From: Crossaster papposus
Taxonomy: Eukaryota > Echinodermata > Asteroidea > Velatida > Solasteridae
Assembly: GCA_037893245.1 (NCBI GenBank)
Contig: JBAIAA010000398.1
Location: 124,001 to 188,000, forward strand
DNA length: 64,000 nucleotides
Reading direction: 5' to 3'
Part shown: piece by piece, positions 26,501 through 32,500 of the stretch
How positions within the stretch are numbered: position 1 is the stretch's first letter
Layout: each line of letters starts with the position of its first letter
Made by a program: the position numbers and the translations under genes
Notes under the pieces: generated by a model
The model's database searches: none
Told to the model about the DNA's origin: nothing
Seen by the model: the letters and a program-made list of their open reading frames with translations, nothing else

Positions 26501-29500
26501 TATGTTTAACCAGTTCGCGCCGGGATAATTTTAACATCGCCGAGCCGAGGGGCGGGATTATTTTTAACGAAACTCGAACCGAAGCGGGTTCAGGTTTATC
26601 GTGCTGGGAAGCACACCCATGCATTTCCAGCCTTGCTCGCTGCTGACATACGTTTCCGAACTTGAACTTGGCGTGTTTATGCGTCATCCGTTTTGAATTT
26701 GGGGAAATTTGTGCGTTTATATACGTCATCCCGCGCGAACTGGTTAAGGTAGTTCATATCATCTAAGCCATTTGTGTACAATATTTCATTCACAGTTGCC
26801 ACTTGTTTTTTCTATTAAACCATCACCACAGAGGCAGCAGAGATCGTCCGCAACATTGGCCTAGCAATCCAGCACCTGCACTCCATGAACATCGCCCATC
26901 GGGACCTGAAACCTGAAAACTTGCTGTACAAGGACAAGAGCAAGAACTCTGTGCTTAAACTCACCGACTTTGGCTTTGCCAAGATGACTACTACAGCCAC
27001 CCTCCAGACGCCGTGTTACACACCTTACTACGTCGGTTAGTGTCAGTTTGTCATGTATATTACTATAGGGTACTTGGGGCTTGTGGCCAAGTGGTTTGTG
27101 ACTTAAAGCTAAACTAGACCATTAACAGCTTTGCCAAGATGACTACTACGGCCACACTCCAGACGCCGTGTTACACACCTTACTACGTTGGTTAGTGTTG
27201 GTTTGTCATGTATATTACTATAGGGTACTTGGGGCTTGTGGCCAAGTGGTTTGTGACTTAAAGCTAAACTAGACCATTAACAGCTTTGCCAAGATGACTA
27301 CTACGGCCACACTCCAGACGCCGTGTTACACACCTTACTACGTCGGTTAGTGTTGGTTTGTCATGTATATTACTATAGGGTACTTGGGGCTTGTAGCCAA
27401 GTGGTTTGTGACTTAAAGCTAAACTAGACCATTAACAGCTTTGCCAAGATGACTACTACGGCCACCCTCCAGACGCCGTGTTACACACCTTACTACGTCG
27501 GTTAGTGTCAGTTTGTCATGTATATTACTATAGGGTACTTGGGGCTTGTGGCCAAGTGGTTTGTGACTTAAAGCTAAACTAGACCATTAACAGCTTTGCC
27601 AAGATGACTACTACAGCCACCCTCCAGACGCCGTGTTACACACCTTACTACGTCGGTTAGTGTCAGTTTGTCATGTATATTACTATAGGGTACTTGGGGC
27701 TTGTGGCCAAGTGGTTTGTGACTTAAAGCTAACCTAGACCATTAACAGCTTTGCCAAGATGACTACTACGGCCACCCTCCAGACGCCGTGTTACACACCT
27801 TACTACGTCGGTTAGTGTCAGTTTGTCATGTATATTACTATAGGGTACTTGGGGCTTGTGGCCAAGTGGTTTGTGACTTAAAGCTAAACTAGACCATTAA
27901 CAGCTTTGCCAAGATGACTACTACGGCCACCCTCCAGACGCCGTGTTACACACCTTACTACGTCGGTTAGTGTCAGTTTGTCATGTATATTACTATAGGG
28001 TACTTGGGGCTTGTGGCCAAGTGGTTTGTGACTTAAAGCTAAACTAGACCATTAACAGCTTTGCCAAGATGACTACTACGGCCACGCTCCAGACGCCGTG
28101 TTACACACCTTACTACGTCGGTTAGTGTCAGTTTGTCATGTATATTACTATAGGGTACTTGGGGCTTGTAGCCAAGTGGTTTGTGACTTAAAGCTAAACT
28201 AGACCATTAACTGCTTTGCCAAGATGACTACTACGGCCACCCTCCAGACGCCGTGTTACACACCTTACTACGTCGGTTAGTGTCAGTTTGTCATGTATAT
28301 TACTATAGGGTACTTGGGGCTTGTGGCCAAGTGGTTTGTGACTTAAAGCTAAACTAGACCATTAACAGCTTTGCCAAGATGACTACTACGGCCACCCTCC
28401 AGACGCCGTGTTACACACCTTACTACGTCGGTTAGTGTCAGTTTGTCATGTATATTACTATAGGGTACTTGGGGCTTGTGGCCAAGTGGTTTGTGACTTA
28501 AAGCTAAACTAGACCATTAACAGCTTTGCCAAGATGACTACTACAGCCACACTCCAGACGCCGTGTTACACACCTTACTACGTCGGTTAGTGTCAGTTTG
28601 TCATGTATATTACTATAGGGTACTTGGGGCTTGTGGCCAAGTGGTTTGTGACTTAAAGCTAAACTAGACCATTAACAGCTTTGCCAAGATGACTACTACG
28701 GCCACACTCCAGACGCCGTGTTACACACCTTACTACGTCGGTTAGTGTCAGTTTGTCATGTATATTACTATAGGGTACTTGGGGCTTGTGGCCAAGTGGT
28801 TTGTGACTTAAAGCTAAACTAGACCATTAACAGCTTTGCCAAGATGACTACTACAGCCACACTCCAGACGCCGTGTTACACACCTTACTACGTCGGTTAG
28901 TGTCGGTTTGTCATGTATATTACTATAGGGTACTTGTGGCTTGTGGCCAAGTGGTTTGTGACTTAAAGCTAACCTAGACCATTAACAGCTTTGCCAAGAT
29001 GACTACTACGGCCACCCTCCAGACGCCGTGTTACACACCTTACTACGTCGGTTAGTGTCGGTTTGTCATGTATATTACTGTAGGGTACTTGGGGCTTGTG
29101 GCCAAGTGGTTTGTGACTTAAAGCTAAACTAGACCATTAACAGCTTTGCCAAGATGACTACTACGGCCACACTCCAGACGCCGTGTTACACACCTTACTA
29201 CGTTGGTTAGTGTTGGTTTGTCATGTATATTACTATAGGGTACTTGGGGCTTGTGGCCAAGTGGTTTGTGACTTAAAGCTAAACTAGACTATTAACAGCT
29301 TTGCCAAGATGACTACTACAGCCACACTCCAGACGCCGTGTTACACACCTTACTACGTCGGTTAGTGTCAGTTTGTCATGTATATTACTACATGTATAGG
29401 GTACTTGGGGCTTGTGGCCAAGTGGTTTGTGACTTAAAGCTAAACTAGACCATTAACAGCTTTGCCAAGATGACTACTACAGCCACCCTCCAGACGCCGT

Positions 29501-32500
29501 GTTACACACCTTACTACGTCGGTTAGTGTCAGTTTGTCATGTATATTACTATAGGGTACTTGGGGCTTGTGGCCAAGTGGTTTGTGACTTAAAGCTAAAC
29601 TAGACTATTAACAGCTTTGCCAAGATGACTACTACAGCCACACTCCAGACGCCGTGTTACACACCTTACTACGTCGGTTAGTGTCAGTTTGTCATGTATA
29701 TTACTACATGTATAGGGTACTTGGGGCTTGTGGCCAAGTGGTTTGTGACTTAAAGCTAAACTAGACCATTAACAGCTTTGCCAAGATGACTACTACGGCC
29801 ACACTCCAGACGCCGTGTTACACACCTTACTACGTTGGTTAGTGTTGGTTTGTCATGTATATTACTATAGGGTACTTGGGGCTTGTGGCCAAGTGGTTTG
29901 TGACTTAAAGCTAAACTAGACCATTAACTGCTTTGCCAAGATGACTACTACGGCCACCCTCCAGACGCCGTGTTACACACCTTACTACGTCGGTTAGTGT
30001 CAGTTTGTCATGTATATTACTATAGGGTACTTGGGGCTTGTGGCCAAGTGGTTTGTGACTTAAAGCTAAACTAGACCATTAACAGCTTTGCCAAGATGAC
30101 TACTACGGCCACCCTCCAGACGCCGTGTTACACACCTTACTACGTCGGTTAGTGTCAGTTTGTCATGTATATTACTATAGGGTACTTGGGGCTTGTGGCC
30201 AAGTGGTTTGTGACTTAAAGCTAAACTAGACCATTAACAGCTTTGCCAAGATGACTACTACGGCCACCCTCCAGACGCCGTGTTACACACCTTACTACGT
30301 CGGTTAGTGTCAGTTTGTCATGTATATTACTATAGGGTACTTGGGGCTTGTGGCCAAGTGGTTTGTGACTTAAAGCTAAACTAGACCATTAACAGCTTTG
30401 CCAAGATGACTACTACGGCCACACTCCAGACGCCGTGTTACACACCTTACTACGTTGGTTAGTGTCAGTTTGTCATGTATATTACTATAGGGTACTTGGG
30501 GCTTGTGGCCAAGTGGTTTGTGACTTAAAGCTAAACTAGACCATTAACAGCTTTGCCAAGATGACTACTACGGCCACCCTCCAGACGCCGTGTTACACAC
30601 CTTACTACGTCGGTTAGTGTCAGTTTGTCATGTATATTACTATAGGGTACTTGGGGCTTGTGGCCAAGTGGTTTGTGACTTAAAGCTAAACTAGACCATT
30701 AACAGCTTTGCCAAGATGACTACTACGGCCACCCTCCAGACGCCGTGTTACACACCTTACTACGTCGGTTAGTGTCAGTTTGTCATGTATATTACTATAG
30801 GGTACTTGGGGCTTGTGGCCAAGTGGTTTGTGACTTAAAGCTAAACTAGACCATTAACAGCTTTGCCAAGATGACTACTACGGCCACACTCCAGACGCCG
30901 TGTTACACACCTTACTACGTCGGTTTGTGTCGGTTTGTCATGTATATTACTACATGTATAGGGTACTTAGGGCTTGTAGCCAAGTGGTTTGTGACTTAAA
31001 GCTAAATTTGACCATTAACAGTTTTGCGTTTTTCCTCATTTGATGCAAGAGGTATATGATTTTTTTAGATATTTGTCTGAAATCATACTTTTGAATCTCG
31101 GAAAAAAGGCATTATCTGTATAGAAAGATAAGCATCTTTCAGACATTTCATCAATTTTCTGATGTTTTTCTTAATTGACAATCTCATCCCTGAACAAAAG
31201 TGTTTAAAACCTGAAGGCAATTGCTTGACAACTAACTTGTTGAAGTTTTTTCTCTGTGAATGCTGTAGATTTAGTGTATGCTGTAGATTTAGGATACCAT
31301 GCTGGCATACAAATATGTTAGTGTTTCTATAGTCTTTCAAATCCATCACCTTAAAATCCATTTTGCTAGGCTTACAATCCTGAATCCATCAGTTTGTTCA
31401 ATATGGAGGTATCCTCAATCTGCCGAAGTCTAAAACAGGAAATGTATTTTGATGAATTCAGTTACGTTAGGGTTCATATCACCTACAGTACACGTGTGTG
31501 TGTGCGTTGTTCGAATGCTTCGTGCACCATTTGCCGATTACAAACAAACTAACAGAAATCTCCCTTTTTGGAAATTACATCTTTGGAAATGGTCTGGCAT
31601 CCCAGACCATTCTTAGTTGTTTCATGCCAAGCAAACTAGAGGAAAACACTGACCTTACGTACTATATTGGCTCTTGACAAGCTTGACATACTTTCACTGA
31701 AGGTCTTGGCCACTTAAAGGTAGGATACACCATTTGCAGATATCAAACAAATTTACTACTGAATTATTCAGGAAATAGCTTACTTATTTGAAAGTAAATA
31801 ATGATTGTAGGCATCCAGCAAAATGATTGCGCTGGATATCCTGTAATTGTTCTGAAAAAATGAATTTTATACAAAAAATCACGATCGCCGACCGGTGATC
31901 GCGAAAAAAACAAAAACAAGAACAATATAAGAATCACTGCCGGACGACGATTAAAAATGAACGTCATTTTTTGTTGCTTTTTTTAGCATCCATGATTGTA
32001 AAACTTTAGACAGGCCAGTTAAACGATATTTACTAGAAAATTCAACCCCCCAAATCCACCCATTCCTGATAATTCAAGCAATTACCAATGGTGTATACTA
32101 CCTTTAAACAGTTTCAGAATGGCTCCTAATTCAGTCCAGATGTTGCAATTCTGTATTATGGAATTGTCTCCATTATTCTCTGGCGAAGAAAAAGACATTG
32201 TATCCTGTAAACCTTTTAGTTGTGAATTGATAACAGATTACTTGTTATCTTGGGAATCTGACAAGAGTCCAATTTGCAAAGGAGTTCTCAATAAATTTTG
32301 TTATGTATTTTAATTTAATTTTATTTATTACAGGATGTCAGTAATATCTTTTATCAATAATCTCACATCTCACAGGATTTTCACAGAATGCAGAAATGAC
32401 TACAAAGTGTAATTCTGCCTTTGCCACTCAATTTCTTGTGATAAAATTTGACACGATCTAACTTTGTTTTTATGGTGTTTTTTTCAGCCCCCGAGGTTCT

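Follow-up and report, generated by a model that had tools for sequence, protein, structure and literature searches.

The MAPKAPK2/3 gene and its exon-end array

The stretch of Crossaster papposus DNA analyzed in the present study (the window, 64,000 nucleotides, on contig C398) carries a gene of which eight exons were found, with GT and AG at the junctions. When the exons were joined and compared with the PDB, the best match was MAPKAPK2 (E 4.7e-156) and MAPKAPK3 was also matched, which agrees with the p38-activated kinase that an earlier sequence-only reading had named. The exons found are as follows; a slash marks the junction between exon and intron.

18247-18451, exon 1 of 8 found, donor AAA/GTAAGT
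24207-24346, exon 2 of 8 found
25980-26038, exon 3 of 8 found
26832-27035, plus strand, exon 4 of 8 found, the activation-loop exon, 204 nt, matched in the PDB
32488-32563, plus strand, exon 5 of 8 found, preceded by an AG that ends at 32487; its acceptor must join the first donor of the array described below
33381-33591, exon 6 of 8 found
34676-34756, exon 7 of 8 found
from 35600, exon 8 of 8 found

Since an acceptor precedes the exon at 18247-18451, another exon lies further upstream. A 15-bp array (8.7 copies, 99% alike) occupies 17863-17993, upstream of that exon. At the other end of the gene, a 35-bp duplication of the pyrimidine tract (x2.1, 34603-34674) stands directly before the acceptor of the exon at 34676; this acceptor-side repeat stops short of the splice site and does not reach the AG.

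The MAPKAPK2/3 gene is otherwise intact, and the intron that follows its activation-loop exon is largely made up of copies of the end of that exon. TRF, run on the 64-kb window, reported an array at 26973-31027 with a period of 155, 26.0 copies and 97% matches (score 7598), and the 26-copy array of about 4 kb seen in the sequence-only reading is thus real. Cut in register, it consists of the following parts.

26974-27128, plus strand, unit 1: the last 62 nt of the exon, the donor TCG/GTTAGT and 93 nt of intron
27129-31021, plus strand, units 2-26: 25 decoys, all of them with GT at the donor (GTTAGT in 24, GTTTGT in one)
30861-31021, plus strand, unit 26: the copy with the greatest divergence (7-15 differences from the others), at the intronic edge of the array

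Unit 1 is the own 3' end of the exon at 26832-27035, and the remaining 25 copies are intronic. The composition of the unit had been described correctly as an exon end, a GTTAGT donor and intron, but its exonic part measures 62 nt instead of 63 and its intronic part 93 nt compared with about 90. We take the peptide encoded by the unit to be the activation loop of MAPKAPK2/3. The units are spaced by 155 bp in 23 of 25 cases and by 161 bp in the other two because of a 6-bp insertion in units 16, 18, and 26. GTTAGT occurs in 25/26 units and GTTTGT in the final one, and the 25 decoys with GT account for the roughly 25 additional 5' splice sites that had been counted before the next acceptor, the position of which (32487) was also given correctly. 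AG precedes 23 of the 25 decoys, and these copies resemble 62-nt pseudoexons (AG ... GT).

Copies had been said to differ at scattered sites, and 16 distinct unit types were in fact distinguished among the 26 units. Ten of the 26 are identical, the interior being homogenized and unit 26 being the excluded edge copy. The intron measures 5452 bp, of which 3986 bp (73%) belong to the array, counted from the first donor onward. When the 1.02-Gb assembly was searched at the DNA level, the array came up at this locus only (one first-look candidate), and within it neither strand has a listed open frame of at least 110 aa. No second haplotype of the locus was found by a protein search, in which the other listed places were at most 69% identical, over 29 aa; the corresponding DNA search with the flanks was swamped by an interspersed repeat. 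Approximately 395 bp of a high-copy interspersed repeat (31714-32108) lie in the same intron as the 26-unit array and are approximately 85% identical at the listed places, the best 40 of 14609 first-look candidates having been scored.

Donor choice and the reading frame

Read-through past the first donor yields YYVG and then a stop, and the inclusion of one, two, or three decoys as exons leads to a stop after VALPR. A whole kinase therefore needs position 27035 to be joined to 32488, which bears out the earlier argument that the first donor must be preferred, and the reading frame suggests that this donor is the one used in splicing. Its predicted U1 duplex (-7.3 kcal/mol) ranks fourth among the seven donors of the gene (range -10.5 to -5.6), and the decoy donors reach -7.3 in 20/25, -7.1 in 4/25 and -6.6 in the last copy. 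The AGs ahead of the decoys are poor acceptors, with a mean pyrimidine fraction of 0.48 before them versus 0.59-0.82 at the eight real acceptors of the gene. The junctions in the array read TCG/GTTAGT, TTG/GTTAGT, or TCG/GTTTGT, none being AG/GT as looked for at recursive splicing sites; together with the poor decoy acceptors, this lends no support to the recursive use that the sequence-only reading had considered. The individual copies cannot be included in frame, as was looked for in a cluster of mutually exclusive exons. An RNA structure hiding the decoys gave no signal in the three stretches analyzed (z 0.84, 1.10, and -0.04).

Further donor-side arrays in the same gene and in kinesin genes

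A second donor-side array was detected at the first exon found of the MAPKAPK2/3 gene.

18415-19151, plus strand, 185-bp units x4.0 (TRF)

Its unit takes in the last 37 nt of the exon at 18247-18451. In random placements of the four arrays in the window with a period of at least 100, two or more fell on the seven donors of the gene with P 0.0014, a post hoc value in which other genes are ignored. The profile search with the kinesin family PF00225 revealed three further loci, with 16 matches in which one piece of the profile recurs in short steps.

L081: KIF2-like exon end, 133-bp units x8.0; PDB best match KIF2C
L079: KIF1-like exon end, 145-bp units x8.3, intron 1114 bp; PDB best match KIF1A
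L080: KIF1-like exon end, 145-bp units x3.2, intron 390 bp; PDB best match KIF1A

The two KIF1-like loci align best over 795 bp (94% identity); the flanking 3.0 and 3.2 kb beyond this segment did not align. Whether alleles or paralogues, they differ in copy number (8.3 in L079 versus 3.2 in L080), and the two arrays may represent one event. All five arrays seen are on the donor side, which fits the expectation that copying there spares the coding exon; four independent cases, however, would agree in this by chance once in 16 times. Read as its reverse complement, L079 has five of eight copies ending in AG/GTAAG, a juxtaposed acceptor and donor.

Substitutions in the decoy copies

In the 26-unit array, the four exonic changes (at three sites) are all synonymous, and the intronic part has 12 variable sites; the chance of four out of four is P 0.0045 by change and approximately 0.017 by site (calculated by hand). 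Both changes in the second array (18415-19151) are nonsynonymous. In the kinesin arrays, 11 synonymous changes, 17 nonsynonymous changes, and three stops were counted in L081 (20/31 altering), 15 synonymous and 17 nonsynonymous of 32 in L079, and 10 and 13 of 23 in L080, counts that leave out the partial ninth unit of L079 and the rows after the third unit of L080. The synonymous excess over expectation had P 0.012 in L079, 0.054 in L080, and 0.18 in L081. The simplest reading of this pattern is that the copies descend from a coding copy and then drift, and recent descent from a coding copy could explain the exclusively synonymous changes in the 26-unit array.

Survey of the assembly

The frequency of such arrays was approached by profile searches of the assembly, the tables of which were judged by eye for one piece of a profile repeated at short spacing. 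Matches numbered 134 for PF00069, 91 for PF00063, 132 for PF00225, at least 154 for PF00102, at least 152 for PF07714, and at least 153 for PF00071. A repeated profile piece was not seen among the matches listed for PF00069, PF00063, PF00102, PF07714, or PF00071. PF00005, with 19 matches that were all on contig C8, was uninformative about arrays. Among 60 kinase and myosin loci fetched from 225 matches, an array with a period of at least 30 that overlaps the exon was found in none (0/60); many kinase matches at the loci surveyed are long open frames instead of short exons. Short decoys escape profile searches, and the tables miss cases, as the absence of the MAPKAPK2/3 gene of the window itself from the kinase table shows.

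Tandem kinase-like open frames, mostly of 534-546 aa and approximately 6.7 kb apart, were observed on contigs C701, C282, and C359. Contig C8 (5.3 Mb) has COX1 on an unbroken 682-aa frame, carries all 19 of the 19 ABC transporter matches, and has the appearance of a bacterial chromosome that was included in the assembly. The mitochondrial contig C1841 (16,330 bp) has AAA at positions where conserved COX1 and COX2 motifs carry Asn, ATA where they carry Ile, and TGA where they carry Trp; between tRNA-Thr and COX1, its minus strand holds ND2, ND1, and much of a tRNA cluster, 16S being assigned to this region by exclusion. Amphioxus as the host was rejected on the basis of this code and gene order, which point to a starfish or, less probably, to another asterozoan, since gene order also groups brittle stars with starfish. 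Near-identical Ras matches lie on 178-aa open frames at 20 listed places on several contigs, as if these frames had been spread by duplication or by a mobile element.

Comparison with mirages and other known structures

Minisatellites over exon-intron boundaries have been described in amphioxus under the name of mirages (PMC3087553), with cases in Adh3, the globins BflGb6 and BflGb9, and TnC, and a similar one in PGBD5 (PMC3087553, PMC3902484). The array in the MAPKAPK2/3 intron has the structural features of mirages. Tandem units span the boundary in both, here with 62 nt of exon, the donor, and 93 nt of intron repeated 26 times, and the units of the amphioxus globins measure 150-160 and 157 bp, compared with 155 bp in the starfish. 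Splice signals (AG/GT) are described for many amphioxus copies, as GT is found in 25/25 and AG in 23/25 of the decoys here, and a homogenized interior with a diverged edge copy is reported for amphioxus (PMC3087553) as it is observed in the starfish. The host, however, is a starfish and not a cephalochordate, and its 26 copies compare with six and three in the two BflGb6 haplotypes. Furthermore, the five starfish arrays are all on the donor side, whereas mirages on both sides are reported in amphioxus, where regular mRNA was also shown by RT-PCR; the starfish array is known from genomic sequence. A literature search, with most subscription journals outside its scope, found no mirages outside amphioxus. 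We regard the starfish arrays as mirages, in an animal group beyond amphioxus and in several genes, the class itself being already known. The sequence-only reading was right on the array, but lacked the AG before 23/25 decoys, the second array, the kinesin arrays, and the assignment to mirages.

Two other known processes share features with these arrays. Intron gain by the duplication of exon pieces containing AG/GT, a model discussed in PMC3087553, also places exon copies with splice signals inside a gene; in the present case, however, an existing intron was enlarged, and an intron at a new position was not observed. Recursive splicing sites have a candidate counterpart in the KIF1-like L079, with AG/GTAAG at five of eight copy ends, in contrast to the MAPKAPK2/3 array, which has no AG/GT junction.

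Proposed origin and alternative explanations

We consider it probable that the array is a mirage that arose by tandem duplication, grew by unequal exchange, and is tolerated, with the first donor being defined together with the real exon and the decoys serving as intron filler. The edges of the 26-unit array read CTTTGCC in the exon and TTTTGCG in the intron and have TTTGC in common, a likeness as expected of a first duplication led by microhomology, and a stretch reaching from the exon into the intron may have been duplicated once between these similar edges. The array would then have grown by unequal exchange or slippage, the former being suggested because 10/26 units are identical and the last unit is diverged. 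The acceptor of the real exon would pair with the first donor, either by exon definition or because the donor transcribed first is used first, and the decoys, having no good acceptor, would be removed together with the intron. As long as the first donor is chosen, donor-side copying would not damage the coding exon, and for this reason such copying would be nearly neutral and able to fill an intron. Were a copy to capture splicing, it would introduce a premature stop and be selected against; copying on the acceptor side would require the use of the last acceptor.

This mirage explanation is supported by the register of the array from exon into intron, the intactness of the gene over eight exons, the stop that follows read-through or the inclusion of one to three decoys, the weak decoy acceptors, the TTTGC common to the two edges, the homogenized interior with its diverged last unit, the altered decoys in other arrays, and equivalent arrays at four further exon ends in this genome. 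Counted against it are the all-synonymous exonic changes, which free filler need not show and toward which L079 also leans; the edge similarity, which is small in the second array (2 nt, CC) and was not seen in L081; and the absence of an array from the 60 kinase and myosin loci.

The decoys may instead act as poison exons, 62-nt pseudoexons that are sometimes spliced in, add a stop, and thereby lower the amount of the kinase. The AG before 23/25 decoys, donors that equal the real one or fall little short of it (-7.3, -7.1, or -6.6 versus -7.3), the stop that follows the inclusion of one decoy, and the lack of any exonic change altering an amino acid in the 26-unit array are in favor of such a role, but the decoy acceptors are weak, no conserved RNA fold was found (z 0.84, 1.10, and -0.04), and the decoys are altered in the second array and in the kinesin arrays; we regard it as improbable. 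The same synonymous changes, which leave every copy encoding the same peptide, would suit mutually exclusive or coding tandem exons, with the copies as alternative activation loops. This is scarcely conceivable: a length of 62 nt is not divisible by three; one, two, or three copies lead to a stop, so that the frame contradicts it, and with identical residues in all copies there is nothing to choose between. The multiplication of a single exon end by misassembly would be in keeping with the finding of no second haplotype of the locus; it is very unlikely given the 16 distinct types among 26 units, the diverged last unit, the 6-bp insertion in three units, and the comparable arrays at further exon ends.

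Returning to the mirage explanation, a wider reading that we put forward as a speculation, itself rather doubtful, is that introns of starfish, and perhaps of deuterostomes beyond them, regularly grow through donor-side mirages. The bias to donors would arise because the spliceosome, once an exon is defined, settles on its first donor and disregards any number of equal donors that follow. The decoys may have turned into poison exons in some genes, or into recursive sites where AG/GT arises, as in the KIF1-like array. The donor-side position of all five arrays suggests a rule of "first donor wins", and if the donor-first reading is true, the arrays represent a series, provided by nature, in which identical donors compete in graded numbers. 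With 26 near-identical donors in one natural intron, the MAPKAPK2/3 array allows the choice that the spliceosome makes between equivalent sites to be tested directly. It also extends mirages from amphioxus to starfish, points to a simple route by which an intron may grow out of its own exon, and exemplifies a trap for gene annotation.

Other features of the window

At 7019-9535 on the minus strand, an open frame of 839 aa encodes RRM and SPOC domains (Pfam) and presumably belongs to an RBM15/Spen-like gene. On the plus strand, the 631-aa open frame at 59900-61792 may be part of a mobile element, as suggested by a weak match to reverse transcriptase (27.2 bits, below the cut-off of 29.6).
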